A stretch of 64,000 bases of DNA from Spongiibacter thalassae (lineage in GTDB: Bacteria > Pseudomonadota > Gammaproteobacteria > Pseudomonadales > Spongiibacteraceae), in assembly GCF_012272835.1 (NCBI RefSeq), contig NZ_JAAWWK010000002.1, positions 463,451 through 527,450 of the forward strand, given 5' to 3'. Shown in pieces: positions 23,228-43,299 of this stretch. A program made the position numbers and the translations under genes. Each line of letters opens with the position of its first letter. Positions within the stretch are counted from its first letter, which is position 1. Under the pieces are notes generated by a model that saw only the letters and a program-made list of their open reading frames with translations, had not been told where the DNA came from and did no database searches.

Positions 23228-23456
23228 TGTGAATTCAGTCCCGTTAACTATTGAGCGCTAACCCTGCGCAGCGCATTGACCGTGTTGTTGTTTAAGCAAT
23301 TGCAGTCATTACAGATGCAAGAATCGGGCGAGGTTTTTGGCTGATTTCCGCAAAATTACCGCAAATCAATCTGTCCTCAGGGGCAAAAAACACGGCTTTT
23401 CTATTGCTGAAAATAGCGATTGTCGCCGATTGGCGACGCAATAAATGATAATAAAA

Positions 23457-23579: not shown

Positions 23580-23595
23580 TTGGCACACTCTTTGC
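23580..23595 (+). promoter_or_regulatory. Sigma-54 (-24/-12) promoter
   Basis: T-TGGCAC-ACTCT-TTGC matches the sigma-54 consensus TGGCAC-N5-TTGC at every conserved base, with GG and GC exactly 12 bases apart. Transcription would begin near 23607 and run into the TolC-like gene at 23799. It predicts dependence on RpoN and on an AAA+ activator. One such activator, the GlrR type, is encoded 7 kb away, but its known TGTC-N10-GACA site is not seen here. Confidence 0.7.
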
Positions 23596-23798
23596 CCTTG
23601 CTTGGCCAACAGTGCGGATGTAGCGGTTTGCAATACCACCCCACATCACGCTGCGGGAGTCGTCGGAAAATTTTTCGACCCATCCCAACAACATCCCGGA
23701 ACTGGGTAGCTGAATGTTTAGTGCCCTCGACAGAAAGGGCGCGGCGAACAGCAGGATAGGCACCTCAACATGAATTCAGTAATGGGAGCGGTTATTAA

Positions 23799-25214
23799 AT
23801 GAAAAAAGTATACGGAGCATTATCGCTGGCAGTTGCCGTCGCGCTGAGCGGCGCCAGCATTTCGGCGATGGCGCAGGATGTGCCTGCTGGGCAAGCAGCG
23901 GCCAGCCCTGAAAGTCAGAGTCAGAGTGAAATGCCTTGGGCGGCGTTTCTGGAGCAGTTGCGCGAAGTGGCGATGTCTTCGCCGGCAATGATGGCGGAAT
24001 CGTCATTGCTCGAAGCTGAGCGGCAGAATTACTACGCAGAGCGTGGTGATCTGGGGCTTAATTTAAGCGTTAGTCATACGCGCTTTCCTGAAAGCTCAGG
24101 GTCAGAAATTGATGATGGTGCGGTCAGCGAGCTGGAAGAGTACTCCGAAGCTCGGTTGTCGCTCGACCTGATGCACCTGCTGGCGCGACGGGGTTCAGCG
24201 GTAGACGGCGCCAAAGCGAGAGTTGAAAGCGCGGAGTATGAAATGGCGCTGAAGGCGAACCAAGCCGCGGTAAATCTGATGGAAGACGCGGTGACTGCAT
24301 GGACCTATCGCTACCGCCGCGAGGCTTTGCGCAATGCACTGGCCGGAGTGGAAAGCGCCAAAGGAAAACTGCGTTTGTCGGAAAGTGCGGCGATGCCGGA
24401 AATTACCAAGGCGACGCCGGTGAAAGTGGCCGAGGCGATTATTCTGCACAGTGAGGTGAAGAATAAGCTCGATTCAATTTCTCCGTTGATTCCCAATATT
24501 CCCACGCCACCCGGTGATTTTTCCATGTTGCCGCTGACGCCTCCCAGTGGCGATGAGATTAACCAAGTGGCGAATCAGGATCTGAATGCACAGCGACTGC
24601 GTGCTGAATCCATGGCCTTCGCCGAAGAGGCGGAGTCGCTGCGTGGCAATGGCATGGCCCTGTCAATTTTCGGTGGATATGTCGAGAGAAAGAGCAGTCC
24701 CACCGACATTGACAGCGATACGGCGGCCAGCACCAGCGGGCCACAGTACGGGGTGCAATTGAATATCCCTCTGGGCAGCCGCCAATACCACCAACGCCGT
24801 GCGGCAGAGTACCAGGCCCACGCTGCTACGCTGGGGGCTAACGCGGCGGTTCGTCAAAGTCAGCGGGCGCTGGTGAAGCTGCGCGACCAATGGGCAGAGT
24901 CGGTGGCTCGGTTGAATCAGGCGCAGGAGTATATGCGTCAGCAAGCCACCCTGTTATCGCAAATGAAAAAGCGCTCGCGCTCACCCGGCTCGGGCCGTGC
25001 ACCGGAACCCTGGGAAGTGGATATGCAGGAAACGGTGTTCTGGAACGCTGTGGCCGACGTCTGGGAAGAACGCGCCCAGTGGATTCAGAACGCGCTCACC
25101 TGGGGTCTGTTAAACCCGCAGTATTTACACGCGCATAGCCGTGAACCGAATCCGGAAAGCAGCTACACGTTGTGCGCTCCCTATGGTGCCTGCGAAGACA
25201 TCGCTGGCCTGTAA
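23799..25214 (+). CDS. TolC-like outer-membrane efflux protein of the exopolysaccharide operon
   Basis: The 471-residue protein has a signal peptide (residues 1-25, cleavage after SAMA). It is mostly long heptad-like helices with two short strand regions (RGDLGLNLSVSHTRFP and GMALSIFGGYVERK ... YGVQLNIPLG), the pattern of TolC-family channels. The internal duplication typical of TolC is discernible: helix-strand-helix twice, each followed by AAV-rich helices. It should form a trimeric outer-membrane exit duct. A TolC-type duct next to a processive glycosyltransferase and an HlyD-like adaptor is unusual; alginate and similar systems use AlgE- or AlgK-type exits. It is the first gene after the sigma-54 promoter and 27 bases before the next gene. 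Confidence 0.75.
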   Translation: MKKVYGALSLAVAVALSGASISAMAQDVPAGQAAASPESQSQSEMPWAAFLEQLREVAMSSPAMMAESSLLEAERQNYYAERGDLGLNLSVSHTRFPESSGSEIDDGAVSELEEYSEARLSLDLMHLLARRGSAVDGAKARVESAEYEMALKANQAAVNLMEDAVTAWTYRYRREALRNALAGVESAKGKLRLSESAAMPEITKATPVKVAEAIILHSEVKNKLDSISPLIPNIPTPPGDFSMLPLTPPSGDEINQVANQDLNAQRLRAESMAFAEEAESLRGNGMALSIFGGYVERKSSPTDIDSDTAASTSGPQYGVQLNIPLGSRQYHQRRAAEYQAHAATLGANAAVRQSQRALVKLRDQWAESVARLNQAQEYMRQQATLLSQMKKRSRSPGSGRAPEPWEVDMQETVFWNAVADVWEERAQWIQNALTWGLLNPQYLHAHSREPNPESSYTLCAPYGACEDIAGL

Positions 25215-25241: not shown

Positions 25242-26663
25242 ATGGATCTTTCATTAAGTAAGCGAACAAGCCGCCAGCCGGGCGAAGGACGATTGAAGCA
25301 ATTCCAGCTTCTGGAACTTCGCGAGTTTGATCGAGGCACCGATGAGGCGGTGGCGGTTAAAGCCGTTCTCGGCGAGCCGCTGGCGCAGCTGGGTGATCGC
25401 GATGTCGCGCAGGTTCCGCTGGTGATCGTCGGTTATGACCATCTCAAGATCGAACAGCTTTTGATTGAGCAGCGCGAGGGCTTCTCTGCGCTGCGCCCGA
25501 TTGCTGTGGTTGGCCTCGATGGCGCAAAACTGACAGCCAATATTGTCCAGTTGGCAGATATTGTGTTGCCCCCGCACCCACGGGAAGATGACCTGGTCAG
25601 CACGGCGGCGACCCTGTCTACCCTGGCCACTCATATTGAGCGCCTGCCGCGTGCTCCCAGAGATTCGGCGCTGACCATGTTGCAGTTCCTCTACACACGC
25701 GGGCGCGATATCGAGGCCGAGGTCGATGCCGACAGCCCCATCGCTTACCGCTATCCCCTTGCGGAAACCCTGCTGCAAAGCGATGTGCTGGAGTCCAACT
25801 CCATTTTGCAGGACATGGCGTCGCGGGGCTTGCTGCAAGGGCGTCACGTCGATCGTCTGTTCACCTGTCCGTCATGCGAAAGTTATCAGGTTCCGGTGAA
25901 GGAGCTGTGCCCCGAGTGCAAGTCGACTCACCTGGGGGTTGAAGAGTCGATACATCATTTCCGCTGTGGCTATGTTGGGCCGGAGTCGGAGTTTACCGTG
26001 AACGGCACAAATCAATGCCCGAAGTGCTTTTCGGCCATTCGGCATATCGGCGTCGAGTATAACCGTCCGGGGCGTTTTTCGATCTGCCGCCAGTGTAATT
26101 TCTGGGCGGCCGATCCCGACCTCGCGGCCTGGTGCGCCAACTGCAATGAGTACCATTCTCCCGCAGACCTGAAGCCGGTCAATATCAACACCTTTGTGCT
26201 GGGGCAGGCCGGTGTCAATGTGGCACGTATAGGCCGGTGGGGTGGTCCCGCTCTGGCCGATGGCCGCGATATAGGCGACGAGCTGGGCGTGCCGGAGGGG
26301 CGCAGCAGCGAACAGCTGGAGCAGGACTACAGCAAGGCCCTGGCCCTGAAGGTGGTCGAGCTGGCGCAGCAGAGCGGTCGCTCAATGACGATTTATAAAG
26401 CCTCGCTAAAACACAGTGATGTGGACGCTGAGGAACTGCAGGAGATGCTCTCCCAAACCCGCGAGGTGCTGCGGGAGGTGCTGCGGGAATCTGATGTCGT
26501 GGTCAATACCAGCGATGCCGACTTTCTCATTCTACTGCCCGCCGGCGACGATATTCCAACGATGAAGGAAATGCAGGACTACGTGTATCGCCGGGCTGGC
26601 CTGACGATTGACATCGTGACGATCAGTGGTGCTGAGCCCCTCGGTCGGGCAGCGAGGCTGTGA
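25242..26663 (+). CDS. TackOD1-domain zinc-ribbon signalling protein with degenerate GGDEF-like C-terminus
   Basis: The 473-residue soluble protein has three parts. Residues 20-115 resemble a receiver-like alpha/beta domain (VPLVIVGYDHLKIEQLLIEQREGFSALRPIAVVGLDG) without clear acidic phospho-site residues. Residues about 170-310 form a TackOD1 metal-binding domain with five CxxC pairs (209/212, 223/226, 259/262, 282/285, 298/301) plus Cys242 in the diagnostic HHFRCGYVGPESEF. Residues about 375-465 look like the second half of a GGDEF fold, but the signature is TSDADF, so cyclase activity is not expected. It probably senses or relays a signal to the synthase complex, perhaps c-di-GMP or redox/zinc. 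Gaps to neighbours are 27 and 39 bases, so it is part of the operon. Confidence 0.7.
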   Translation: MDLSLSKRTSRQPGEGRLKQFQLLELREFDRGTDEAVAVKAVLGEPLAQLGDRDVAQVPLVIVGYDHLKIEQLLIEQREGFSALRPIAVVGLDGAKLTANIVQLADIVLPPHPREDDLVSTAATLSTLATHIERLPRAPRDSALTMLQFLYTRGRDIEAEVDADSPIAYRYPLAETLLQSDVLESNSILQDMASRGLLQGRHVDRLFTCPSCESYQVPVKELCPECKSTHLGVEESIHHFRCGYVGPESEFTVNGTNQCPKCFSAIRHIGVEYNRPGRFSICRQCNFWAADPDLAAWCANCNEYHSPADLKPVNINTFVLGQAGVNVARIGRWGGPALADGRDIGDELGVPEGRSSEQLEQDYSKALALKVVELAQQSGRSMTIYKASLKHSDVDAEELQEMLSQTREVLREVLRESDVVVNTSDADFLILLPAGDDIPTMKEMQDYVYRRAGLTIDIVTISGAEPLGRAARL

Positions 26664-26702: not shown

Positions 26703-28022
26703 ATGACCGATATTATCAATATGGTTGTCGGCTATGTTGAAGCCAGTCTGGCGATGTTGTTTGCGCTGACACCCTGGCAACTGGTCATGTTGATGTGGCC
26801 CTTCCTGCTGCTGACCGTGCCGCGCTTTGTGTTGACCGAGCTGTTCGCTCTTTATCAGGGCTTGCGTCCCGAGCCGGAGGAAAAAACCCGCTTTCGCCAG
26901 CGCCTGCAAGTGAACCCGCCACTGGTGTCGGTACTGCTGCCCGGCTACAACGAGCGCGACACGCTGGAAACCACGGTGTTGTCACTGCGTGAGCAGAGTT
27001 ATCCGAATCTGGAGATCATCGTGGTCAACGACGGCTCCACTGATGGTATGGGCGAGGTCGGCCGCAAGCTGGCTAACCGCGGCTGGGTGCGCTACTTCGA
27101 GCATCGCATGCGCGGTGGCAAGTCGTCGGCGGCCAACTTTGCCCTGAACGCGGCGCGGGGCGAATTCATCGTAATTTGCGATGCCGACTCCACCTTCGAT
27201 ACCGATTCCATCTGGCATCTGCTGGTCGAGTTTTATCGCCCGGAGGTGTCGGCGGTGGCGGGTAACCTGCGCGTGCGTAACGCCGATAGCAATCTGCTGA
27301 CGCGCTTGCAGGCCATGCAATATGTGTTTGGCATCGGTGTGGGTCGTCGGGTGTCGGCGATGCTGGGCATATTGTTTATCGTGTCCGGTGCCTTCGGTGC
27401 GCTGCGACGCTCGACGGTGGTGGGCACCGGCGGTTGGGAAACCGGACCCGGTGAAGACGGCGATGTCACGGTGAAAAACCGCGTTGCAGGGGGAGATGTG
27501 GCCTTTGCACCGGAGGCCATGTGCATGACTGATGCACCGGATTCCTGGTGGCCCTATTACCGTCAGCAATTGCGCTGGAACCGCAGCATGATCCGTTTCA
27601 ATGTGCGCAAATACGGCTGGCTGTTTAATCCCTTTCGCCGTCCCTTCGATATTCGCAATCTCATTGCCAATATCGACACGGTGGTTTACCAGCTGGTATT
27701 GAGCATCACCTTTCCGATCTATCTCGTGTGGCTCTACATGACCCACAACGAGATTTTCTACCCGCTGATGCTGGTGATATTGATTTTATATACCGCGCTT
27801 AACTATGTGCATTTCGTTGTCGCATTGGCCTTGAGTGAACGGCCCTGGGTCGATCTGAAAATGCTGCCATACATTCCCCTGTATGGCCTTTTCATGGGCT
27901 TTTACCTGAGAATCGTGCGGCTTATCGCCTACGCTGACGAATATTTCCTGCGCACCTCGTACTACGAAACCTATGTGCCAGAACATGTTCAGAAACAATC
28001 AAGGATGTATGATCCATGGTGA
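26703..28022 (+). CDS. Processive-type family 2 glycosyltransferase (polysaccharide synthase)
   Basis: The 439-residue membrane protein has two N-terminal helices (about 12-50) and a cytoplasmic GT2 domain. Its catalytic signatures are all present: Asp110 (VVNDGST), DAD at 160-162, EDGD at 251-254 in the TED position and QQLRW at 288-292. Three or four C-terminal helices follow (about 325-411). This is the cellulose/alginate/hyaluronan synthase arrangement, polymerising a sugar at the inner membrane and passing the chain outward. It lacks its own PilZ domain. A strong AAAGGAGG site precedes the ATG, and its TGA overlaps the start of the adaptor gene (ATGGTGA), so both are made together. The sugar cannot be read from sequence. 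Confidence 0.88.
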   Translation: MTDIINMVVGYVEASLAMLFALTPWQLVMLMWPFLLLTVPRFVLTELFALYQGLRPEPEEKTRFRQRLQVNPPLVSVLLPGYNERDTLETTVLSLREQSYPNLEIIVVNDGSTDGMGEVGRKLANRGWVRYFEHRMRGGKSSAANFALNAARGEFIVICDADSTFDTDSIWHLLVEFYRPEVSAVAGNLRVRNADSNLLTRLQAMQYVFGIGVGRRVSAMLGILFIVSGAFGALRRSTVVGTGGWETGPGEDGDVTVKNRVAGGDVAFAPEAMCMTDAPDSWWPYYRQQLRWNRSMIRFNVRKYGWLFNPFRRPFDIRNLIANIDTVVYQLVLSITFPIYLVWLYMTHNEIFYPLMLVILILYTALNYVHFVVALALSERPWVDLKMLPYIPLYGLFMGFYLRIVRLIAYADEYFLRTSYYETYVPEHVQKQSRMYDPW

Positions 28023-29392
28023 ATAAAATGATTAAAAGCGATATGAGAGATGATGCCGGTAATGGCCGGTATCCCGACAAAATTGTTCCCGAGCGTCGCG
28101 ATCCCAGCGTCTACGGGCGACAGCCCGTCAACTCGGTACAGGCGCGCCCCTGGCGCCAGTGGCATACCGCGGCGAGCCCGCAACCCGCTGCTGCGCTGGA
28201 GGTCGCTCAGCCGCGCAAGCCCCAGTGGGGACGCTGGATTTACTTCGCGATTTTGCTCGGCATTGCCTATATCGCCCTGCGCTTTGTCTACCTGAATTTC
28301 TTCTGGTTTTCGGCCAGTGGTTTTATCAATGGCACGCAATACAATGTCGCGCCGTCGGACACAGTGTCGATCAAGGAGATTTTGGTTTCCCCGTCAGACA
28401 CGGTCGAAGAGGGCGACCTGCTCGCCAAGCTCAGTTCTCCGGCCCTGGTGCAGTCACTGGCCAAAAACGAAGCGGAAATGGCCCGCTTGCAAAGTGACCT
28501 GGCACAGCGCTCGGTAACCAGCTCGGGTAACGAGTCGCAGTTGCAGGCTGAAGTGCAATCCTTGCAGGCTGAAATGGAGTATCTGGAGTCCCAGTATTTC
28601 CAGGAGACCCAGCAGCTCAATGCCCTGCGTGAACTGGTCGAAGCCGGTGCGACGCAGCGCGGCAACCTCGACCAGCTGCAAAGTCAGCACAATAAAACCT
28701 GGGCGGAATATCGTCGGGTGGAGGCCCAGCTGGCCTCGACACGTAGCCAGCTGGCGACGCTTCGCGGCAGCAAGGAATCTTCTGGCGCGCCGGAGCTGTC
28801 CCAACGATTAGCGGCACTGAAAGAGCTGCACACCTCCATTGAGGACCAGCTTGCGGCACTGGAGCTGCGCGCGCCGATGGCGGGCACCGTGTCGCGGGTG
28901 CCGGTATCGAAGGGCGATGTTCTGCGCGCGGGCGAGCCCGCGGTTGAAATCGTCGATAAAAACCAGCTGCGCGCTTATCTGTATTTCCCTCCCGCGGCAC
29001 AGGGCAAGTTGCAGAAGGACATGGTCATTCCGGTGTCCCGCGCCGATGGTTCGAAGTTGGAGCTGGTGGTAAATAAAGTGTATCCGTCGATGGAATCGCT
29101 ACCCGAGGAATTGCAGCGCAACTACCGGCCCGGCAGCTCTGCCATTGTTGTTGAGGCGCGGCCCAAGGACGACAAAACCTTTGCCCTGGATATGACCTCC
29201 GGTACCCCCATCGAGGGCCGCATTCCGCGATGGTCGCTGCCGACCACAGTGACAGAGCCTTTCGAGCGGGTGGCCGATGAAACGTCCACCGGGGCGAAAA
29301 AAGCGGTACAGGATGCCAAGCTCTCGCTGGAGTCAGCGGTGGAGAAAAGCGGCGTACTGTCGAACCTGACGACGGCGGCTGCAAAACAATAA
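28016..29392 (+). CDS. HlyD/Alg44-like membrane fusion protein coupled to the glycosyltransferase
   Basis: The 458-residue protein has a 70-residue cytoplasmic tail and one membrane helix (about 72-96). A biotinyl-lipoyl half follows (VSIKEILVSPSDTVEEGDLLAKLSSP), then a long coiled coil (about 145-295) and the second lipoyl half (LRAPMAGTVSRVPVSKGDVLRAGEPAVEIV). A beta-barrel and a helical tail complete it. This is an HlyD-type periplasmic adaptor. It resembles Alg44, the alginate copolymerase partner of Alg8, in topology and in its place next to the GT2, but has no PilZ domain. It would bridge the synthase to the TolC-like channel. Translation is coupled to the glycosyltransferase by a seven-base overlap. 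It is the last gene of the operon. Confidence 0.85.
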   Translation: MVNKMIKSDMRDDAGNGRYPDKIVPERRDPSVYGRQPVNSVQARPWRQWHTAASPQPAAALEVAQPRKPQWGRWIYFAILLGIAYIALRFVYLNFFWFSASGFINGTQYNVAPSDTVSIKEILVSPSDTVEEGDLLAKLSSPALVQSLAKNEAEMARLQSDLAQRSVTSSGNESQLQAEVQSLQAEMEYLESQYFQETQQLNALRELVEAGATQRGNLDQLQSQHNKTWAEYRRVEAQLASTRSQLATLRGSKESSGAPELSQRLAALKELHTSIEDQLAALELRAPMAGTVSRVPVSKGDVLRAGEPAVEIVDKNQLRAYLYFPPAAQGKLQKDMVIPVSRADGSKLELVVNKVYPSMESLPEELQRNYRPGSSAIVVEARPKDDKTFALDMTSGTPIEGRIPRWSLPTTVTEPFERVADETSTGAKKAVQDAKLSLESAVEKSGVLSNLTTAAAKQ

Positions 29393-29566: not shown

Positions 29567-31333
29567 ATGGATTGGCAAGCATGGCTGGTACTGTCACTCA
29601 CGGTGGCGGCGTTGCTGTGTCTGATATTCAGCCACGTGGCGCCCTATCTGGTGATGATGGGGGTGATGACACTGCTCAGTGTGTCAGGGGTTATCAGCCC
29701 CGCAGAGGCGCTTTCCGGCTTTGCCAATCCGGGGCTGATTACCGTGGCGGCGATGTTTGTTGTCGCGGCCGGGGTGCACGCCTCGGGCGGTATTGACCTG
29801 CTTGGCCATCGCTTGCTGGGACAACCGACCAGCCAGCGTGGGGCCCTGTTGCGTATTTTCGCGCCCGTGGCGGCGCTCAGTGCTTTTGTCAATAACACGC
29901 CGCTGGTTGCGACAATGATTCCCGTGGTTCACAGTTGGTCGCGGCGAATCAATATTCCCGCCAGTAAACTGATGATCCCGCTGAGTTATACCGCCATCCT
30001 GGGCGGGACGTTGACGATGATTGGCACCAGTACCAATCTGGTGGTCAATGGTCAGTATCAGGCGTTGACAGGGGACGAAGGCTTTTCGCTGTTTTCAATC
30101 ACTCTGGTCGGATTGCCGGTCGCCGTCGCCGGCATGGCCTTTATGTGGCTGTTTTTCCCCCGCCTGCTGCCGCATCGACAAAATGATGCTCTGTTGTCCA
30201 ACCTGCGTGAGTTTACCCTTGAGGTCAGCGTGGCCGAGGGTGGCCCTCTGGTAGGCAAGAGTATTACCGCCGCGGGACTGCGCAATCTAAAACGCATTTA
30301 TCTGGTAGAAATTGATCGAGGCGGGGTGATTCACAGTCCCGTGGCCCCTGAAGAGGTGTTATGCAGCGGCGATCGTCTGGTGTTTGCCGGCGACACTGAT
30401 GCCATTTCCGACCTGCTGCGCATTAAGGGCATCGCCGCATCAGATCAGCAGCCGGACAGTCGCCGACGCGCTGAACGGCGTCTGGTCGAGGTGGCGGTGT
30501 CCTCCCAGTGTGAGGCAATAGGTCAGTCGCTGCGGCGCAGCGGCTTTCGCGAACGTTACGGGGCGGCGGTGCTTGCGGTGGCCCGTGGCGGCGAGCGGGT
30601 CAAGGGCAATCTTGGCACCACTACATTGGAAGCCGGGGATATTCTGCTGCTGGAAACCGGGCCGGGATTTATCGATGCCCAGCGTCGCCACCGGGACTTT
30701 TTACTGGTGAGCGATCTCGGCCAGGAAGCGCCGCGTCACGATCGCGCCTGGCTGTCGCTGGCAATTCTGGTAGCCGTGGTGGGATCAGCGGGAGTGGGGG
30801 TATTGTCGATGCTGAATGCCGCGCTGATTGGTGCGGGGCTGATGATCGCCTGCGGGTGTTGTTCGCTAAAACAGGCGGAGCGGAGTTTGGACTTAACCGT
30901 TATTCTAACGATTGCGGCCTCCTTTGCACTCGGCGCCGCGCTGGAAAAAACCGGTGTGGCGAAGGTGATCGCCGAAAATATCGTCGCCCTGAGCTTCGGC
31001 CAAGCGTGGCTGATGCTGGCGTTGACCTATATTGCCGTGTCATTACTCACCGAGACTATCAGTAATAACGCGGCGGCGGTCATTATGTTGCCCATCGCGC
31101 TGGGAATCTGTGAGAGTTCCGGCTTGAACCCGGAGCCCTTTGTGTTTGCCATTATGATGGCTGCGTCAGCCAGTTTCGCTACGCCCCTGGGTTACCAGAC
31201 CAACCTGATGGTGCTGGGGCCGGGGGACTATCGCTTTGCGGATTTTGTCAGGGTGGGGGTGCCAATGAATATATTTGTGGGCGTGATCACCCTTGTCGTG
31301 CTGCTGGTGGGCTGGCCGCTCTACCTCGAATAA
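29567..31333 (+). CDS. SLC13/DASS-family anion transporter with two RCK_C domains
   Basis: The 588-residue protein has membrane helices at both ends. The first DASS half holds the signature SNT-like motifs (FVNNTPLVATMIP and GTSTNLVVNG), and the second half holds the mirrored ETISNNAAAVIMLP and ATPLGYQTNLMVLGPG. Two TrkA-C/RCK_C domains are inserted between them (about 210-290 and 305-385). This domain order is that of bacterial and algal SLC13 proteins involved in sulfate or related anion uptake. Substrate is therefore probably sulfate, another sulfur oxyanion or a dicarboxylate. It follows the adaptor gene by 174 bases on the same strand and converges with the SQD1-like fusion gene. Confidence 0.88.
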   Translation: MDWQAWLVLSLTVAALLCLIFSHVAPYLVMMGVMTLLSVSGVISPAEALSGFANPGLITVAAMFVVAAGVHASGGIDLLGHRLLGQPTSQRGALLRIFAPVAALSAFVNNTPLVATMIPVVHSWSRRINIPASKLMIPLSYTAILGGTLTMIGTSTNLVVNGQYQALTGDEGFSLFSITLVGLPVAVAGMAFMWLFFPRLLPHRQNDALLSNLREFTLEVSVAEGGPLVGKSITAAGLRNLKRIYLVEIDRGGVIHSPVAPEEVLCSGDRLVFAGDTDAISDLLRIKGIAASDQQPDSRRRAERRLVEVAVSSQCEAIGQSLRRSGFRERYGAAVLAVARGGERVKGNLGTTTLEAGDILLLETGPGFIDAQRRHRDFLLVSDLGQEAPRHDRAWLSLAILVAVVGSAGVGVLSMLNAALIGAGLMIACGCCSLKQAERSLDLTVILTIAASFALGAALEKTGVAKVIAENIVALSFGQAWLMLALTYIAVSLLTETISNNAAAVIMLPIALGICESSGLNPEPFVFAIMMAASASFATPLGYQTNLMVLGPGDYRFADFVRVGVPMNIFVGVITLVVLLVGWPLYLE

Positions 31334-31392: not shown

Positions 31393-33867
31393 CTAGTGCA
31401 ATGGCGCGCGTTGTCCCGCCACGACAAATTTGCCCGACAGACTGACCTGCTTCATACACTGATCCATCACCGAGAGCGCGTGTTCCAGGCGGCTTTCGGT
31501 TTCATAGAACGGCACGCCAAAGCGCAGTAGTTGTCGCGGCTCACCTTGCTTGCAGGTGTCCTTAATGCACTTGCAATGTACCCCTCGGGCATTCATGGCG
31601 TTGTACAGGGGGTAGGGGTCGTAGTCGTCAAAGGCGACGGTTAACACGCCGGCTTCGCAGCTCAGGGCATACTGCTGATTAAGGAATCGGTGGGCGATAC
31701 CGTACTCCTCCAGCAGTTGGTCCAGACCGGCGCGCAAACGGCTGGCAAGGTAGCGTCCCCGCTGTCGGATCGTCGCTTCACCGACTTTTGTATGTAACGA
31801 CAATGCCGCGTGAACCCCGGCGAATACCGAAAAGTCCATGCCTCCCGCCGGTGAAAAGCCAATTGCCGTGGCGTCATTCACCAGGGGCAGGCCCGACCAG
31901 TTCAACCCGCCGGAGCGCTCGCGAAAGGCCTCGCTGGTCCACATCAGACCGCTGCCCCGTGGGCCAAACAACCACTTATGACAGCTGCCAAAGACCACAT
32001 CGGCGTGCGCCATCGGCGGCGTCATCAAGCCCAGAGACTGGGAAACATCGTAAAGCACCCAACACTCCGGCACCATTTCCTTGACGATGCGACCCCATTC
32101 GCTGACCGGGAAAATATGGCCGTTGTCGTAGGCGATATGGGAAAAGAACACCACATCCGGGCGCTGCACATACACCGCATGGGCGAAGGCCTCAATGCTG
32201 TTGAGCTGTTCGGTGGTGAGATAGCGAACGTCAAACTCGGGCAGCCGTTCAAAGGCCCCGGTGCCGCCGATGTGCTCGTGGGGCGTGGTGAGTACCTTCA
32301 GTTTGCGCTCTGTTGTCCGACACATGCGCAACAAATTCAGCGCGAGAATATTGGAGCACTGGGAGGCGCCGGCGCTCACCTGCAGCTGGTGATCTGGGCT
32401 GGGCCAGAGCGCGTTGGCGGTGTCGACGGCGCGCTTGAGTGCCGCCCGTCCCTCGCCGTATTGGCCGATGGGAAAGGCCATTACATCGCTGTTTTCAAAG
32501 TCCCGTTGCGCCGCTAACACCGAGGCAGCAGGGCTGCCGAGGGTGCCGGGATTGAGGTTGATATGTCGATAGGGAAACTCGGTGCGACGGAAGTGTTCCC
32601 AGCGACTGTCACTGTCGTCACCCTGAGGAGTAATGTTCAGCGCTACGATATCGGCACCCCGTTGCTGCTCTGTGGTGGCCTCCCGCTGCCAGCCGTGTCT
32701 GGGCTGGAACAGCTCGGCATTGATCGCATTGCGAAAGGGCAGCAGAATTTTCAGGGTTTTTGCCACGACCTGTTCCAGAGTTTCGTGCTCACCGCGACTT
32801 TTAACGTAGTGCCGCTCGACGTTGTACTCCAGTTTGCTGGTTTCATTCTCGCTGCGTGGGTCGAAGCGACCGCGTTGAATATCCACCTCATAGCCCGCCT
32901 TGCCGGCCAGTTCACGGATGGTATCGGCCAGCTCATTAATCGAGAACGACTCCTCGGTGAGGTGATTGATGACCCGGTGTTGGCCCTTGTCAGGGCTCTG
33001 TTGCCACAGCTCCGACATTGACACCACCGAGTCATTCAGCGACATCAACCCCGTGCGTTGGTGGCCGCTGCCGTACACCGTAAGAGGCATGCCGCACAAC
33101 GCCTGGGTCAGGAAGCGATTGACCACCGTGCCAAAGAACTCATCGTAGTCCAGCCGGGTATACAAGGACGGGTGCCCGGCGGCGTCTTCTGTCCAGGCCC
33201 CGAACACGGTGGATTGCATAATGTCGGTAATACGCAGCCCCCAATGCCGACAGGCGATGGAAATATAGTTGGTGTCGTTGATTTTGGACGCGTGATAAAA
33301 ATCATCGGACTGACGTGGGTAGGGCACCGGACGCTCGGCGACTTTGCCATTGTAGCTCGGGGTAAAATAACCCTCGGCGATATCCAGACCTGATTTGGCG
33401 TATTCACCAAAGGTGCCCAGCTTAATAATATGGCATTCAGGGGCGTAGTCCTTCACCGCCCATAGCAGCCGCATATTACCTTCTTCGTTGTTGCGCAGGG
33501 TCATCAGAGCATCATCCCTGCTGCGCATCGACAGCGGCGCAGAACACTGCTGGGCCAGGTGGTATACCGCCGCGGGTTGTTGGGAGCGAATCAGTGCGGT
33601 CAGCGAGTCGCTGTTCACATCGAGGTGGATAAATTCCAGATTGGTGACGTTGTGAATGGCCCGAGCGGCGGCGAGCCGGTCACTGGGGCTGCCAATGGGG
33701 ATCAGGCTGTCTGAGCCTACCCCCTTTACCCAGCGCCGCCGTGCGAGGTTGTCGGCGATGATAATGTTGCGGTGGCGGTTTTCCCGGGCGAGTCGCAGTG
33801 CCAGCGGCCACCCGATATAGCCGTCCCCGCCCAGGACTATGATGGGTGCAGTACTGTTTTTTACCAT
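31393..33867 (-). CDS. Fusion of SQD1-like (UDP-sulfoquinovose synthase) and SufS-like class V PLP domains
   Basis: From the ATG at 33867, set by GGAGGATC eight bases upstream, the protein has 824 residues. Residues 1-390 are an NAD-dependent SDR closely patterned on SQD1. They have GGDGYIGW (13-20), DNLARRRW, the SQD1-type catalytic Thr152 (KLGTFGEY), Tyr191 and Lys195 (YHASK), and RLDYDEFFGTVVNRF. SQD1 makes UDP-sulfoquinovose from UDP-glucose and sulfite. Residues about 430-800 are a class V aminotransferase/cysteine desulfurase fold. They have Asp607 and Gln610, PLP lysine Lys631 (CHKWLFGPRG) and RGVHCKC (761-767), which falls where SufS has its catalytic cysteine, before the substrate arginine in LLRFGVPFYET. 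The fusion may couple sulfur release to sugar sulfonation. The domains are clear; the combined reaction is inferred. Confidence 0.8.
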   Translation of the reverse strand: MVKNSTAPIIVLGGDGYIGWPLALRLARENRHRNIIIADNLARRRWVKGVGSDSLIPIGSPSDRLAAARAIHNVTNLEFIHLDVNSDSLTALIRSQQPAAVYHLAQQCSAPLSMRSRDDALMTLRNNEEGNMRLLWAVKDYAPECHIIKLGTFGEYAKSGLDIAEGYFTPSYNGKVAERPVPYPRQSDDFYHASKINDTNYISIACRHWGLRITDIMQSTVFGAWTEDAAGHPSLYTRLDYDEFFGTVVNRFLTQALCGMPLTVYGSGHQRTGLMSLNDSVVSMSELWQQSPDKGQHRVINHLTEESFSINELADTIRELAGKAGYEVDIQRGRFDPRSENETSKLEYNVERHYVKSRGEHETLEQVVAKTLKILLPFRNAINAELFQPRHGWQREATTEQQRGADIVALNITPQGDDSDSRWEHFRRTEFPYRHINLNPGTLGSPAASVLAAQRDFENSDVMAFPIGQYGEGRAALKRAVDTANALWPSPDHQLQVSAGASQCSNILALNLLRMCRTTERKLKVLTTPHEHIGGTGAFERLPEFDVRYLTTEQLNSIEAFAHAVYVQRPDVVFFSHIAYDNGHIFPVSEWGRIVKEMVPECWVLYDVSQSLGLMTPPMAHADVVFGSCHKWLFGPRGSGLMWTSEAFRERSGGLNWSGLPLVNDATAIGFSPAGGMDFSVFAGVHAALSLHTKVGEATIRQRGRYLASRLRAGLDQLLEEYGIAHRFLNQQYALSCEAGVLTVAFDDYDPYPLYNAMNARGVHCKCIKDTCKQGEPRQLLRFGVPFYETESRLEHALSVMDQCMKQVSLSGKFVVAGQRAPLH

Positions 33868-34449
33868 TGTTGATCCTCCGAATCGTGGTGTCCCGTTCCT
33901 TTGCGCTGAGTACCCCCTAGGCGCCAATCGAGATCTGTGTCTCCTGGTGGGCAATAGCGCAAATGCTATGCCAATTAAAAAGTTGTTTAAAAACAGTTGG
34001 TTGCGACTGCGTGTGCGCGGAGGCGCATGTGGAGGAGGGATATCTGTTGCTGAAACCCAACAGTCATAGGGCGCTTGCTGGCGAGTGGGTGTAAAAGTGG
34101 GAGCTTCCGACTTGCCGGGTGCTCCCGGAAGTGGGGAAATGCCCGGTGCTGCGGCCTTATGGCCGCGGAGAGGAGCGCACGGTGTGGAATCGTTGAGCTT
34201 GTTACCAATAAGCGACAGTGGATCCGGGCCGTCGGCCCATGACGGAGCCCCCGGTGGAGGAGGGTGGCGTGAGGCATTTCCCTCTAAATCAAGGGTTTAA
34301 GCCGTAACCTGTCCGAATATTAATCCAAACAGATGACCCCGCCTGATATGCTTCACCCCTGAATAAACTGTCCTGTGTGACAACTCGCGATGCGCCGTCT
34401 TCCGGTCGCGATGTTTGGTATTAGCACCACCGAGAGAAAAGGAACTCCG
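33868..34449. other. Gene-free region with several hairpins between divergent transcription units
   Basis: No gene is supported in 582 bases. Between 34100 and 34240 there are three strong hairpin candidates: CTTCCG/CGGAAG (34104-34131, or CCGGG-TGCT-CCCGG inside it), GCGGCC-TTAT-GGCCGC (34151-34166) and GGGCC-GTC-GGCCC (34226-34238). The promoters for the fusion gene (leftward) and the RND operon (rightward) must lie here, but I cannot place them with confidence. Confidence 0.45.
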
Positions 34450-39121: not shown

Positions 39122-40435
39122 CTATAGGTCTGCCCTCGGGGACAGACCTTGAAACAGATTGTGGAAATGGGCCTGGATGCTGTCCAGATTGACGTTGGAT
39201 ATGCCACTGGAAAAACCAAACCACACATATAGCCCGTTGAGGTCGCGAAACATCGGCGGCAGGTATTGGGGCATCTGGATAACGCCCTCGGTGACGTAGC
39301 GATACAGTACCGGCACATCGTCCAGCGAGACCTTGCCGACGAAAAGCAGTGGCAGGATCTGCGGCACGTCGGACAGTATTGCGCTGCGGATAAAATTCAC
39401 CGTTTCGATAAAGCCTTTCACGTAGGACAAGTCTTTGGTGAAGCAGCTGCCGCCGGCGACGTTGCCGCCGCGAAATACCCGCTGGGCAATTTTGTAGCTT
39501 TCCTTCGGGGTCAGTCCCTGGCCGACAAAGTGGCGATACACCTGAATAAAATCCGCGCCCTGTTCGGCCATGTCGATGGCAACCACGCGGTCGCTGATTT
39601 TACGTGCGCGCCCCGGGTAAGAGGAAAAGGTGAGGGTTTCGGTCAGCACCGCCAGGCCCTCTTGCAGGGCCGTAATCCGCGGCGAGCCGACACTCAACCA
39701 CGTCGCCCAGGGCTGGTTGCGGCCATTCAGTGTGGTGCCGACGTGCACCCAGCCTTCGTGCACTTCCAGTACCTGTATATCGAGGCTGGAAAAACGGGCA
39801 TGGGTGTTGACCTTGATACAGTCGCCTCCGGCAGAGGCATCGGACACGATGCCGTCGGTTTCCCTGACGTTGAACGGACTGTTGTGAAAGAAAGGTTGTA
39901 GCCGAGCCTGCAGTTGCCGCACGGCCTCGTCGGCGGCAATATTTTTGGGGTAGGCCGAGGCCAGGTGTGTGGCCGCCGGCAGCGAAAAAATATCGCACAG
40001 GCGTTTGCTCATATCGATCAGGCTGAGCTTGTCGCCGCGCAGATGGTCCCGGGCCGAGCCATACAGTTGCTGGCTGGCGGCCATAAAGCCCGGAGTACCG
40101 CGCGCGTCGATCATATCGACCACCACCCGATACTGGGCGACCGTCTCGCTCAAAATGCGGCCAAGTGGATCGCCGTCACCCAGTGTATGACGAATTTTAC
40201 CCTGCAAGTCTTCCAGCTCGCGTTTTTTGCTGTCGGGGTCAAAGCTCAGCGGATTGCTGCGCAAATAGTCCTCGCGGCTAACCTCCGGAAGGCGTTGGGC
40301 TCCCTGTTCGAAAAAGCGCGTTTCCATCGACTGGGGCCATTTGATGGAGTCCAGAATCAGAATTGGTTTTTGGATGCGAATCAGTTCGTCCGACAGCGTG
40401 CGCAGCGCGGTGCCATAGTGTTGCTCATCATTCAT
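39122..40435 (-). CDS. DUF1704 (MATCAP-like, 'QEGLA') putative metallo-carboxypeptidase
   Basis: The ATG at 40435 with AGGAG upstream gives 437 residues; the longer frame includes an artefactual 83-residue lead. The protein carries HExxxH at residues 226-231 (VHEGWVH) and the second-shell motif ALQEGLAVLTE with Glu259, the probable third zinc ligand. This is the DUF1704 family, often labelled 'flavohemoglobin expression-modulating QEGLA motif protein'. Its eukaryotic relatives (MATCAP/KIAA0895) are carboxypeptidases that trim the C-terminal tyrosine of tubulin. A peptide-tail-trimming role is plausible. It is 22 bases after the GNAT-C39 gene, in one operon, facing a divergent RimK-like ligase. 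Its last codons lie in a GGGTCTG-type repeat. Confidence 0.85.
   Translation of the reverse strand: MNDEQHYGTALRTLSDELIRIQKPILILDSIKWPQSMETRFFEQGAQRLPEVSREDYLRSNPLSFDPDSKKRELEDLQGKIRHTLGDGDPLGRILSETVAQYRVVVDMIDARGTPGFMAASQQLYGSARDHLRGDKLSLIDMSKRLCDIFSLPAATHLASAYPKNIAADEAVRQLQARLQPFFHNSPFNVRETDGIVSDASAGGDCIKVNTHARFSSLDIQVLEVHEGWVHVGTTLNGRNQPWATWLSVGSPRITALQEGLAVLTETLTFSSYPGRARKISDRVVAIDMAEQGADFIQVYRHFVGQGLTPKESYKIAQRVFRGGNVAGGSCFTKDLSYVKGFIETVNFIRSAILSDVPQILPLLFVGKVSLDDVPVLYRYVTEGVIQMPQYLPPMFRDLNGLYVWFGFSSGISNVNLDSIQAHFHNLFQGLSPRADL
39127..39148. repeat. Third copy of the GGTCTG...CAGACC inverted repeat, overlapping the DUF1704 3' end
   Basis: GGTCTGCCCTCGGGGACAGACC is a degenerate copy of the element at 14104-14137. 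It supplies the last codons of the DUF1704 gene (the GLSPRADL end) and could form the terminator between the convergent genes. Confidence 0.6.
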
Positions 40436-40457
40436 GGGAACTCCTGTCTCAGTGCGC

Positions 40458-41585
40458 TTACAGGGCGGTAATGGCCAACAGGCAGCGCAGGCGGCGACGG
40501 CCAAAGCTGGCCATGGCGGTGAAATCGTCGATGGCCAAGGGCACGTGGCGGAAATCGCTCTCGGACTGCCAGTGAGAGTCCGTTCGCGCCGGGTTGATAT
40601 GGTTGCCATCGGGGTCGTGCATGTACACATAGTGCTGGTCGGCGCGATGCACGTAAACCCAGTGTGGTGATCGATTTCGGTCAAGTGCCCAGGTGCTGAT
40701 CAGGGCGATCATATCGTCGTGGGTGTCCAGCAGTTGCTTGAACTGCTGCTTGTCCAGCGGCGACACCGTCACCTGGGCGCCGTAGTCGGCGAGCTGGGCC
40801 ACGAAGTCTCGGTGTACCTCTTCCATCACCGCGCGCTTTTCCGGCTGGCGAACACTGTCGATAAAGGGGGTGCCGTTGTCGCTGATATACAACTGCACGC
40901 GAAACTGTCGGCGCAGTGCCGCCAGTGCCAGGCCGTGGGGGGAGCAGCCGCCGTGTCCACTGCACATATATATGGTGGTGGCTTCGCGCCAGAGTTGCAA
41001 TTCTTCCCGCCGGTTCATTGCGAGTTCAGGTCGCTGGCGGTGCATGGCCATCAGCAGGGCCGCCGGCCCGCAGGTGAACTCGGTGGTTTGCCGGTAGTAG
41101 TCCGGGGCCTGGGCAACCAGACTGGCATCGTGGGCGGGCAGCAGGGGCTTTTCCATGCGCAGCGCCGAGCAGCCGTCTTCGTAGTAATCCTCGACCACGT
41201 CAAAATGGGTGTAGCCGAGTTTTTCATAGAGGCGAATGGCGCCGGGATTGTCGCTGCGAACCTCCAGACGCAAAAACAGACAGCCACGGGCGCGGGCCCG
41301 CTTCTCGGCATCGGCCATCAGCCTTTGGGCGAGTCCGCGCCCGCGAAAGTCGGCGTGCAGCGCCAGCGAATACAGTCGCGACAGCAGTGTGCCTCGGCGA
41401 AACAGCAACAGGCTGTAGGCGACAATGCGCTCGTCGCAGGTCAATACCACCAGTAAATGGGCGCCTTCGCGGATAAACCCCTTGATGCTGCGGGCAGAGA
41501 GCCTGTCGCCCTCGAAACAGCGCTCTTCCAGGGCGACAAGCGCCGGGAGATCGGCCGCTTTGGCGAGGCGGATGTCCGTGCTCAT
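40458..41585 (-). CDS. GNAT acetyltransferase fused to C39-like peptidase
   Basis: The 375-residue protein joins two domains. Residues 1-148 are a RimI-like GNAT fold with the acetyl-CoA loop DFRGRGLAQRLM (79-90). Residues 160-375 are a C39-type cysteine peptidase with Cys172 (TTEFTCGPAALLMAM) and His308 (SPHWVYVH), followed by an Asp-containing loop. The pair is known as 'GNAT/peptidase C39' and is described next to RimK-type ATP-grasp ligases. It is thought to take part in peptide synthesis or protein tail modification. It heads the minus-strand operon with the DUF1704 gene and is divergent from the RimK-like gene over 247 bases. Confidence 0.88.
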   Translation of the reverse strand: MSTDIRLAKAADLPALVALEERCFEGDRLSARSIKGFIREGAHLLVVLTCDERIVAYSLLLFRRGTLLSRLYSLALHADFRGRGLAQRLMADAEKRARARGCLFLRLEVRSDNPGAIRLYEKLGYTHFDVVEDYYEDGCSALRMEKPLLPAHDASLVAQAPDYYRQTTEFTCGPAALLMAMHRQRPELAMNRREELQLWREATTIYMCSGHGGCSPHGLALAALRRQFRVQLYISDNGTPFIDSVRQPEKRAVMEEVHRDFVAQLADYGAQVTVSPLDKQQFKQLLDTHDDMIALISTWALDRNRSPHWVYVHRADQHYVYMHDPDGNHINPARTDSHWQSESDFRHVPLAIDDFTAMASFGRRRLRCLLAITAL

Positions 41586-41696
41586 CGGGGCAGCGGTTGC
41601 ACTGTTGGCTTGTGTTGTAGAGGGGCTTGCAGCATGGTGGTGGCCTGTTTTTCATCGCCGCGGAATAAGCGGCTTATGTGGCGGATCATACTGCGC

Positions 41697-41744
41697 ATTA
41701 TTTACCGACTACAATCTAATAATTCACTTGTGAAGGTAAATAAT
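41697..41744. promoter_or_regulatory. Nested inverted repeats in the divergent control region
   Basis: ATTATTTACC (41697-41706) and GGTAAATAAT (41735-41744) are perfect ten-base inverted repeats 28 bases apart. Inside lies TTCAC-TT-GTGAA (41723-41734). Their position between the divergent GNAT-C39 and RimK-like genes suggests an operator for a dimeric regulator that controls both units. Confidence 0.5.
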
Positions 41745-41832
41745 TGGCCGCAGAATGCCGCCAAACAGTCCGCACAGAGGAGTCCCCCTCGCCGCGCCCT
41801 ATCGCCTTGCCACTGAGGAATCATAACGCCCA

Positions 41833-43299
41833 ATGTCCCGATTTTACGTAGTGCTCGACGAGCAAAAGGACTGGTCTCCCTACTACCCGAGCCAGGATGT
41901 TGTCAGTTTCGATGAATACCTGGAAACCGCCGGTCGCGACGGGGGAGAGCGGGTGCGGGTAGTGAATCTGTGTCGATCCTATCGCTATTTGGGAACCGGC
42001 TATTACTGCTCGCTGCTGGCCGAGGCCCGGGGCCACAATGTGATTCCCTCGGTGAAAACCCTGAGTGAGATGGAGCGTAAAACCCTGTCTGCGATACAGT
42101 GGCAGGGGGTCGCCCCTGAATTGAAAAAACTGCACGATGGGGAGGCCGGGGAGCAGCGGCGTCTGATGTGCTGGTTTGGCGAGTGCCTCGACAGTCAGTA
42201 CGCGGCCTTCTGCAAGGCGATTTTCGAGTATTTCCCCTGCCCGCTGATTGAGCTTACTCTGGAGTTCAAGGACGGCTGGCACATAAAGAAATTGCAGGCT
42301 GTCGGCTTGAAGGCGCTGAAAACTGCCGAGGAGCAGGAAGCCTTCGCCAGTCGTTTTGAGTCCTTCAGCAGTAAAATGTGGCGCAAGCCTCCGGCGCGGA
42401 AAAGCTTTCGCTACGACCTGGCGATATTGACAGACCCCAAGGAAAAGCTGCCCCCCAGCGACGGTGTCGCGCTGCGCAAGTTCATTAAAGCGGCTGCCCA
42501 GCTGGGAATCTCCGCCGAGTTGATCACCAGAAAGGACTACGGTCGGTTGGCGGAATATGACGGGCTGTTTATCCGCGAAACGACGTCGGTGGATCACCAC
42601 ACCTACCGCTTCGCTAAAAAGGCGGAATCAGAGGGGCTGGTGGTAATGGATGACTCCCAGTCGATTCTGCGTTGTACCAATAAAATCTATCTGGCGGATC
42701 TGCTGCGCAGCAATAAGGTGCCGGTGCCCCGCACCGAGTTTCTGCGGCGCAACAAGGCCGGAGAGCTGGAGCGCCTGGTGGAAAGCCTGGGACTGCCAAT
42801 GGTGTTGAAGGTGCCCGACGGCGCGTTTTCAAAGGGCGTGGTCAAGGTGGAAACCTGGGAGGAGCTTCAGGCAGAAAGCGAGCGACTGCTGGAAAAGTCC
42901 GCGCTGTTGCTGGCCCAGGAGTTTATGTATACCGATTACGATTGGCGCATCGGGGTGATTGATGGCAAGCCCCTGTACGCCTGCCGTTATTATATGGTTC
43001 ACAACCACTGGCAGATCTACAAGCACGGCAGCAGTCGCAGCCAGTCAGGGGGCTTTGATACGATGCCCACCTACGAGGCACCGAAGAAGGTACTCGAGGC
43101 AGCCGTCAAGGCCTGCAAACTGATCGGCAACGGTTTCTATGGTGTTGATCTTAAGCAAAAGGGCGGTCAGGTTGTGGTGATAGAGGTGAACGACAACCCG
43201 AGCATCGACTCCGGTGTGGAAGACAAATTTATGGGCGATGGTCTGTATAAAGCGGTGATGGAGGTGTTTCTCCAGCGCATGGAGACCCGAGGGCGCTAG
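41833..43299 (+). CDS. RimK-like ATP-grasp ligase with N-terminal RLAN domain
   Basis: The 488-residue protein is longer than RimK. Residues 1-about 200 match the RimK-like ATP-grasp N-terminal (RLAN) domain (MSRFYVVLDEQKDW, NLCRSYRYLGTGYYCSLLAEARGHNVIPS). The rest is an ATP-grasp fold with the ATP-binding VLKVPDGAFSKGVVKV and the metal-binding end VVIEVNDNPSIDSGVEDK. It would join an amino acid or amine to a peptide carboxylate with ATP. Its neighbours (GNAT-C39 peptidase, DUF1704 carboxypeptidase) form a conserved set whose substrate is unknown. The start follows TGAGGAATCA. A perfect hairpin lies just after the stop. Confidence 0.88.
   Translation: MSRFYVVLDEQKDWSPYYPSQDVVSFDEYLETAGRDGGERVRVVNLCRSYRYLGTGYYCSLLAEARGHNVIPSVKTLSEMERKTLSAIQWQGVAPELKKLHDGEAGEQRRLMCWFGECLDSQYAAFCKAIFEYFPCPLIELTLEFKDGWHIKKLQAVGLKALKTAEEQEAFASRFESFSSKMWRKPPARKSFRYDLAILTDPKEKLPPSDGVALRKFIKAAAQLGISAELITRKDYGRLAEYDGLFIRETTSVDHHTYRFAKKAESEGLVVMDDSQSILRCTNKIYLADLLRSNKVPVPRTEFLRRNKAGELERLVESLGLPMVLKVPDGAFSKGVVKVETWEELQAESERLLEKSALLLAQEFMYTDYDWRIGVIDGKPLYACRYYMVHNHWQIYKHGSSRSQSGGFDTMPTYEAPKKVLEAAVKACKLIGNGFYGVDLKQKGGQVVVIEVNDNPSIDSGVEDKFMGDGLYKAVMEVFLQRMETRGR

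Follow-up and report, generated by a model that had tools for sequence, protein, structure and literature searches.

The stretch of DNA analysed in this work, hereafter the window, comprises 64,000 nucleotides of Spongiibacter thalassae (contig NZ_JAAWWK010000002.1, positions 463,451 to 527,450) and carries on its minus strand, at 31393-33867, a gene whose 824-aa product combines two enzyme halves. The N-half is a short-chain dehydrogenase/reductase (SDR) domain with the fold of SQD1, the uridine diphosphate (UDP)-sulfoquinovose synthase, and the C-half is a divergent class-V pyridoxal phosphate (PLP) domain with, as judged from aligned residues, a desulfurase-type site. The fusion and the regulon to which its gene belongs are solid as facts of sequence: by its conserved sigma-54-type promoter the gene is identified here, for the first time, as a member of an exopolysaccharide regulon. 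A role of the protein in making an exopolysaccharide precursor is likely. More tentatively, and with a little less than even confidence, we propose that the protein is bifunctional and yields a UDP-sugar modified at C6, probably with sulfur, which is destined for a secreted polymer of amino sugars; the presence of sulfur in the product is our best guess. Published work is cited from extracts, by accession.

The fusion gene and its two halves

A preliminary description of this DNA, made from its letters alone, had proposed a single protein joining an SQD1-like synthase to a SufS-like domain. The single protein is borne out: one unbroken open reading frame (ORF) spans 31393-33867 on the minus strand, with its ATG at 33867 and its stop codon at 31393-31395, and the plus-strand frame is interrupted there by stop codons. 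A ribosome binding site, GGAGGA, is found at 33879-33874, six bases ahead of the ATG. Full-length fusions are present in 7 of the 21 genomes examined from the family Spongiibacteraceae, namely 4 of the 18 from the genus of the window (its own genome included) and all three from the sister genus (G001-G003: Litorivivens lipolytica and two Spongiibacteraceae metagenome-assembled genomes). The other six proteins are 54-77% identical to that of the window. In pairwise comparisons of both halves among the seven, the synonymous rate (dS) is saturated or nearly so (1.36 or more) and the non-synonymous rate (dN) amounts to 0.08-0.53, the C-half showing the faster divergence in 18 of the 21 pairs (dN 0.08-0.53 versus 0.10-0.41 for the N-half). 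As dN remains below a dS at or near saturation, both halves are under purifying selection. An assembly error is ruled out by the recurrence of the full-length gene in seven genomes, and the identity range and the purifying selection on both halves likewise show that the fusion is not accidental.

The search for the fusion elsewhere thus succeeded within the family, whereas no full-length copy outside it was listed in the class, phylum, order or plasmid samples. Among the matches listed for 369 genomes of the class, with at most two candidates scored per genome, a second full-length fusion was absent. A profile of the C-half (E 1e-12) returned from 398 genomes of the phylum only the genome of the window and one match of 60.7 bits (G604), which is a stand-alone protein read as PvdN-like; from 390 genomes of the order it returned five fusions, all from family members, and three further matches at 48-50 bits. 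With TBLASTN, 26 of 72,556 plasmid records were matched, none covering 80% of the fusion query. Viral contigs gave no match in a weak test that used exact peptides from one sequence, and a scan of genome contigs with two short peptides only gave three loci, those of the sister genus. No description of such a fusion, or of thiosugar enzymes with desulfurases matching it, was found in the open-licence literature, in agreement with the earlier statement that no such enzyme was known.

The N-half (residues 1-420, 32608-33867, minus strand) is matched by solved SQD1 (1i24) over residues 8-395 with an E-value of 9.6e-79, and the profile match reaches 1.5e-87. The motifs GGDGYIGW and DNLARR named in the preliminary description are present, as is the catalytic triad T152 (Ser in one of the seven fusions), Y191 and K195; the E155-Y156 pair following the Thr is also kept. 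An ordinary epimerase identity was considered for this half and rejected: the UDP-sulfoquinovose synthase model far outscores the GalE-like families, and SQD1 is the nearest relative. Residues 9-393 score 348.9 bits on that model (NCBIfam NF041015) and do not reach its cut-off of 575.

The position of the N-half among its relatives was established from a tree and an alignment of the seven fusions with 35 further proteins of the SQD1 type, namely SQD1 itself, 28 proteins from the class search (two of them near-identical) and six plasmid-encoded proteins, including one from Sinorhizobium meliloti. The fusions group together in a single clade with a support of 1.0, and the branch leading to them measures 0.80 substitutions per site. 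The position of Arg101 of SQD1 and Agl3 is occupied by Cys in all seven (C108, codon at 33544-33546, minus strand); among the 35 others, 19 carry Arg there and 16 carry Pro. The position of Met146, in the TMG motif, is Phe in all seven (F153) and Met in 30 of the 35 others. Ser180 is replaced by D189, R263 by Thr and Q293 by His. Fixed residues never found in the 35 others, at positions where at least 80% of these share another residue, occur in the fusions at 13 positions besides that of C108 (L22, Q106, N131, R133, F153, A157, D189, I204, S219, T272, S283, L287, H302).

The significance of these replacements may be judged from Agl3, for which an extract of PMC4388408 reports that the R101A and M145A variants are inactive, that S180A is impaired, that T144A is still active and that E147A and Y148A keep 12-15% activity, Glu147 and Tyr148 being important for dehydration. 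Without sulfite, Agl3 yields UDP-glucose-5,6-ene (PMC4388408), and an extract of a review (PMC8987622) gives the SQD1/Agl3 motif as [ST]MG and likewise reports 5,6-dehydration when sulfite is absent. On the grounds of its distinct clade, its long branch and the replacement of Arg101, Met146 and Ser180 by Cys, Phe and Asp, the N-half is classed from its sequence as an SQD1 fold that is not an ordinary UDP-sulfoquinovose synthase. Since the fold and the Glu-Tyr pair are kept while Agl3-critical positions are changed, it is likely to be a dehydrating SDR that probably acts on an unusual sugar or with an unusual acceptor. The earlier premise that SQD1 needs sulfite can thus not simply be extended to a clade devoid of Arg101, a residue whose change to Ala abolishes the activity of Agl3, with 13 further conserved positions changed and a score below the cut-off of the synthase model.

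The C-half (residues 421-824, 31396-32607, minus strand) matches Pfam Aminotran_5 over residues 499-792 with 52.8 bits (cut-off 21.5), so that domain searches recognize both halves. Three curated families matched only weakly, far below their cut-offs: EgtE (49.8 bits versus a cut-off of 400), the cysteine desulfurase family TIGR01977 (32.9 versus 377) and PvdN (26.2 versus 650). A profile built from the seven orthologues was compared to solved sequences at an E-value of 0.001 and matched 32 of them, 28 of which are named cysteine desulfurase or C-S/sulfoxide lyase. The order of the matches is PvdN (1.7e-10), Nfs1 (1.6e-9), cysteine/cystine C-S lyase (3.9e-9), the sulfoxide lyase Egt2 (1.1e-6) and then IscS, with SufS ranking last of the 32 (8.4e-4 and 9.2e-4). 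The label 'SufS-like' is therefore loose.

In cysteine desulfurases the PLP site comprises the PLP lysine, a stacking His, a D-x-x-Q motif and a carboxylate-binding Arg. The corresponding E531-H532, D607-x-x-Q610, S628-x-H630-K631 and R782 are invariant in the seven fusions and align with IscS and SufS; the PLP lysine, K631, is encoded at 31975-31977 (minus strand) in an SxHK motif. Five cysteines are invariant among the seven fusions (C108, C145, C765, C767 and C804) and eight others vary. Two of the five lie in the motif RGVHCKC, the codons of C765-K766-C767 being at 31567-31575 (minus strand). In order to locate the nucleophile, the fusions were compared to SufS of Escherichia coli (C364) and to IscS of the genome of the window (C328) in four profile and 12 MAFFT alignments. 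C765 falls on the nucleophile in all four profile alignments and in 4 of the 12 MAFFT comparisons, C767 in 7 of the 12 and neither in one, which gives totals of eight, seven and one over 16 alignments. In a seventeenth alignment, which included PvdN-like proteins, neither cysteine falls on C364 of SufS. Since one or the other of C765 and C767 occupies the place in 15 of the 17 alignments, the desulfurase nucleophile probably has an invariant cysteine as its counterpart in the fusions. The earlier placement of C765 there thus holds for one of the two residues but is not settled on C765, the choice being dependent on the alignment. With a desulfurase-type PLP site and an aligned cysteine, the C-half does not appear as an isopenicillin epimerase-like enzyme devoid of sulfur activity.

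An AlphaFold2 model was computed from 22 sequences, with a mean predicted local distance difference test score (pLDDT) of 75.9 and a predicted template modelling score (pTM) of 0.50. In Foldseek comparisons, the template modelling (TM) score by target of the N-half is 0.90-0.91 to the SQD1 structures 1qrr, 1i24 and 1i2b. Among the best 50 rows, the scores of the C-half are 0.74-0.77 for carbon-sulfoxide lyase, 0.72-0.75 for NifS-type proteins and 0.65-0.71 for cysteine desulfurases, single matches being the sulfoxide lyase 8irz (0.75) and the persulfide form of NifS 5wt6 (0.75).

A sigma-54-type regulon and its exopolysaccharide cluster

The strongest evidence on function, which goes beyond the preliminary description, is provided by the sigma-54-controlled amino-sugar exopolysaccharide cluster in which the fusion gene lies. 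Upstream regions were scanned with a weighted form of the consensus pattern TGGCAYR-N4-TTGCW, the weights being our own. Sites scoring at least 19.7 out of 20.9 are present in 20 of 20 upstream regions, those of the fusion (7/7), of a second glmS gene (7/7) and of an export/synthase operon (6/6, genome G003 being left out), and at most 0.4% of 500 single-base shuffles attain the observed score. In the window, the fusion promoter, TGGCATAGCATTTGCG, lies at 33958-33973 on the minus strand, its counterparts in the seven genomes starting 101-138 bp before the ATG. The glmS promoter is located at 22348-22363 (minus strand) and that of the operon at 23581-23596 (plus strand). These are the only three sites of the window at that score, compared with an expectation of 1.07 (30 simulated windows, maximum 4). 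In the window, 45 ORFs with a length of at least 150 aa were tested for a site of this strength in the 450 bp upstream; one was present for these three alone, and the next best score was 19.4.

Each promoter is accompanied by a candidate enhancer of the GlrR/QseF type, TGTC-N10-GACA, exact for glmS (22438-22455) and with one mismatch for the fusion (34200-34217) and for the operon (23421-23438). In the whole genome (G000), the exact sigma-54 pattern occurs 23 times versus once for a reversed control, and an enhancer with at most one mismatch lies within 320 bp upstream of three of these 23 sites, solely those of the cluster. Several other exact sites precede proteins resembling, from their first residues, the products of flagellar and nitrogen genes, which are known sigma-54 targets. 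The enhancer is patchier in the other genomes, being absent upstream of three of seven fusions, one of seven glmS genes and one of six operons, and one-mismatch enhancers are common in the window (30 versus 20.5 expected). The plain sigma-54 pattern with up to two mismatches is not enriched there (34 found versus 44 expected), and the three cluster sites were spotted in that two-mismatch list before the stricter score was devised. The regulon is hence claimed on the basis of the conservation in other genomes, the stricter score and the genome-wide control. No inverted repeats were found upstream.

On the minus strand of the cluster lie, in order of increasing coordinates, a GlrR/QseF-like sigma-54-dependent response regulator (15558-16955; 571.3 bits, below the GlrR cut-off of 763), a small protein in the position of QseG with a lipoprotein-like signal discerned by eye and without family match (16974-17570), a histidine kinase in the QseE/GlrK position (17500-19089), a conserved protein whose best solved relative is a GH18 chitinase at a non-significant E-value of 0.012 (19202-20404) and the second GlmS, a glucosamine-6-phosphate synthase (20415-22247). 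The operon follows on the plus strand with an outer-membrane efflux-type protein (OEP) encoded by its first gene (23799-25214), a TackOD1-domain protein (25242-26663), a PgaC-like family 2 glycosyltransferase of the polysaccharide synthase type (26703-28022; 166.6 bits, below the TIGR03937 cut-off of 422.3) and a HlyD/EmrA-like adaptor (28016-29392). According to extracts, QseF (GlrR of E. coli) binds TGTN12ACA and activates glmY (PMC6075780), glmY is a regulator of glmS (PMC7073468), and sigma-54 is linked to exopolysaccharide genes generally (PMC3162934). The fusion gene is probably controlled by a GlrR/QseF-type sigma-54 system, whose regulator sits in a polysaccharide cluster with its own glmS and probably drives it.

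The association extends to the other genomes. A second GlmS is encoded in all seven fusion-positive genomes and in none of the 14 fusion-negative ones, which carry one. A PgaC-like synthase (E at most 1e-100) is found in six of the seven and in none of the 14, and lies 3-13 kb from the fusion in all six; the one positive genome without it is G003, which is 70% complete and in which the contig bearing the fusion measures 17.8 kb and ends early. The cluster genes recur around the fusion in G004, G001 and G002 and are mostly found in G016 and G019 within the stretches read. The order glmS, conserved protein, kinase, small gene, regulator and fusion is colinear in G004, G001, G002 and G003; G016, G019 and the window have the fusion on the opposite side, past the HlyD gene. 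The row of kinase, small gene and sigma-54 regulator is seen in the window, G004, G001, G002 and G003 (L048), the small gene of G001 and G002 being assigned by position only.

Several neighbouring genes are recorded for completeness. A CitMHS/DASS-type transporter with two TrkA-C stretches is encoded between the HlyD gene and the fusion (29567-31333, plus strand); the stretches read from the other genomes showed no equivalent of it next to the fusion. Solely in the sister genus, a gene ahead of the fusion encodes a protein of 356-366 aa (L047:7263-8345, L046:7077-8144, L048:7285-8382) that begins AISAHGxGHLGQ and is glycosyltransferase-like by eye; this protein of about 361 aa matches no Pfam family and no solved relative, is absent from the genus of the window and gives a model with a pLDDT of 56.6. 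At the fusion end in Litorivivens, a small protein on the opposite strand (L047:11241-11642, minus strand) shows a weak pyridoxamine-phosphate-oxidase-type match below the cut-off (E 1.5e-4). Further along the window (39122-43299), RimK/ATP-grasp-like, GNAT plus C39-peptidase-like and large DUF1704-like proteins occur together, as read by eye from their translations.

Proposed function and alternatives

The proposed mechanism can be summarized as follows. The N-half, dependent on nicotinamide adenine dinucleotide (NAD), would oxidise C4 of a UDP-hexose, either UDP-glucose or UDP-N-acetylglucosamine (UDP-GlcNAc), and would then, by analogy with SQD1 and Agl3, remove water across C5-C6 to give a reactive 5,6-ene. 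The C-half would bind an alpha-amino acid, for which cysteine or an oxidised form of it is the most likely candidate, and would free a sulfur nucleophile next to the 5,6-ene by transfer within the protein. Upon addition of the nucleophile at C6, the C4 ketone would be reduced back and the resulting C6-sulfur UDP-sugar would be polymerised by the neighbouring PgaC-like synthase, or attached to its polymer. Supplying the C6 nucleophile is the simplest use of a PLP domain tied to an Agl3-type enzyme. Two observations make cysteine sulfur the natural candidate: the C-half has its nearest relatives among desulfurases and C-S lyases, and an invariant Cys aligns with the desulfurase nucleophile. The sulfur may be delivered as persulfide, sulfide, sulfite or a cysteine adduct. 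A sulfur partner fits SQD1, as the plant enzyme works with a partner protein: it co-purifies with ferredoxin-dependent glutamate synthase, according to the extract of PMC4388408.

Were this proposal correct, a self-contained enzyme would place sulfur on an activated sugar without free sulfite, and its existence would point to an exopolysaccharide containing sulfur among marine bacteria. Even if sulfur is left aside, the present findings show that a pathway for an amino-sugar polymer, probably under sigma-54 control of the GlrR/QseF type, has taken up the SQD1 fold in a form whose active site is rebuilt. In a more specific version, a persulfide formed on C765 or C767 from cysteine would be relayed covalently to C108 and thence to C6 of a UDP-hexose-5,6-ene, giving a UDP-6-thio sugar. 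The replacement by C108 of the Arg required by Agl3 suggests a covalent step, which is only an idea, and the full relay is held to be improbable. Its consequence would be a thiol-bearing exopolysaccharide, common metabolites being turned into an activated thiosugar in a single step.

A number of observations weigh against the production of a sulfur-bearing sugar. The sugar pocket of the N-half is remodelled, and its product may therefore not be the 5,6-ene. The nearest single solved relative of the C-half is PvdN, which is not a desulfurase, and the Asn of the H-x-x-N motif common to the aligned IscS and SufS is Tyr or Phe in the fusions. The choice between C765 and C767 shifts with the alignment, and at about 17% identity the alignment of Cys on Cys may be mere attraction. 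The structural model is of moderate quality and does not reveal how the two halves are placed relative to each other. Similarity to the genes of the window, a comparison narrower than full annotation, brought no sulfur gene to light in the cluster. Finally, relatedness among the fusion-positive genomes and linkage of the genes deprive the co-occurrence counts of independence.

The chief rival, unlikely but somewhat better placed than the relay, is a dehydratase-aminotransferase, in which the SDR half would generate a 4-keto-6-deoxy UDP-sugar and the PLP half would transaminate it to an amino sugar for the polymer. The action of an SDR and a PLP enzyme on one sugar is well known from separate proteins such as PglF/PglE and PseB/PseC, the cluster serves an amino-sugar polymer, and the changes at R101, M146 and S180 could convert a 5,6-dehydratase to a 4,6-dehydratase. 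Moreover, a DegT aminotransferase gene is found two genes from that of L017, a single-domain SQD1-like relative for surface sugars, which favours amination over sulfur transfer. The C-half, however, matches class V and sulfur enzymes and not DegT, whereas to our knowledge the known nucleoside diphosphate-sugar aminotransferases belong to the DegT/DnrJ family, and the invariant C108, C765 and C767 would be left unexplained.

Less probable than either the aminotransferase or the relay is a UDP-sulfoquinovose synthase with a built-in sulfite source, the PLP half acting as a cysteine sulfinate desulfinase that would feed an ordinary SQD1 half, which is the idea of the preliminary description. The SQD1 fold, the T-Y-K triad and the class-V PLP site are compatible with it, and Arg101 is also missing from the one haloarchaeal relative examined (Natrinema L065, Pro), haloarchaeal proteins being counted as UDP-sulfoquinovose synthases in the extract of PMC4388408. 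It is opposed by the Cys at the Arg101 position in all seven fusions, R101A being inactive in Agl3, by the score of 348.9 against a cut-off of 575, by the long separate branch (0.80, support 1.0) and by a cluster of the amino-sugar polysaccharide type.

An adduct-lyase ranks lower still and is quite improbable: the thiol of cysteine would add to the ene at C6, after which beta-elimination of the S-sugar-cysteine by the PLP half would release a 6-thio sugar. C-S lyases are among the close relatives of the C-half, by fold (8irz, TM 0.75) and by profile (cysteine/cystine lyase and Egt2). We know of no such adduct, and C765 and C767 would have no role. LmbF offers a precedent on S-glycosyl-cysteine for which a protein nucleophile is unnecessary (PMC11794154, extract), but it stacks a Trp on PLP where the fusion has the desulfurase E-H pair. 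Finally, a C-half that is non-catalytic and only dimerising or regulatory would agree with its faster divergence in 18 of 21 pairs, but is very improbable given PLP-site residues invariant in all seven fusions and a dN well below dS.

Comparison with known systems

The UDP-sulfoquinovose synthases SQD1, SqdB and Agl3 share with the fusion the fold, the NAD site, the T-Y-K triad and the Glu-Tyr pair after the Thr. The fusion differs from them by C108, by Phe for M146, Asp for S180, Thr for R263 and His for Q293, by its sub-cut-off score, by the attached PLP half and by its amino-sugar polymer context. Gammaproteobacterial SQD1-like proteins of surface polysaccharide loci (such as L017, L022 and L024) resemble the fusion in adjoining polysaccharide genes and in lacking Arg101, replaced by Pro. 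In contrast to the fusion, they are single-domain proteins, 33-38% identical to it, in which M146 and S180 are kept and whose neighbour is DegT (at one locus) and not a class-V enzyme. More widely, single-domain SQD1-like proteins with Pro101 (L017, L018, L022, L023, L024, L026 and L031) occur beside Polysacc_synt_2 (six loci) or NeuB (two loci), and may make a sugar other than sulfoquinovose. On a plasmid of Pseudonocardia autotrophica (L064), an SQD1-like gene is followed about 1.2 kb further by a gene of the PLP-dependent cysteine synthase family, together with a major facilitator superfamily transporter, an arrangement that may again connect the SQD1 fold with cysteine.

With NifS, IscS and SufS the C-half shares the aligned PLP Lys, His, D-x-x-Q and Arg, and the nucleophile is matched by an invariant Cys in 15 of the 17 alignments, but the C-half is only about 17% identical to IscS and SufS, carries Tyr or Phe for the Asn of H-x-x-N and is attached to an SDR. 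PvdN is its best profile match (1.7e-10) and EgtE/Egt2 is also similar (49.8 bits on the EgtE NCBIfam model), yet the scores are far under both the PvdN and EgtE cut-offs and the D-G-V-H of PvdN corresponds to D-V-S-Q in the fusion. LmbF, the C-S lyase of lincomycin biosynthesis, is likewise a PLP enzyme, of fold type I, and its sugar product retains the sulfur, as proposed for the fusion, but it is a stand-alone protein acting on S-glycosyl-cysteine with Trp stacking (PMC11794154), a distinction drawn from its description and not from its sequence. AbmM of albomycin biosynthesis was also considered as a desulfurase, wrongly, since an extract of PMC12691670 calls it a radical S-adenosylmethionine enzyme.

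The regulatory part of the cluster is best compared to QseE/QseG/QseF (GlrK/YfhG/GlrR) with glmY. Both display the row of kinase, small gene and sigma-54 regulator, a link to GlmS and TGTN12ACA enhancers (PMC6075780, extract). They differ in that the regulator described here lies inside a polysaccharide cluster with its own glmS, which it probably drives, and scores 571.3 against the GlrR cut-off of 763.

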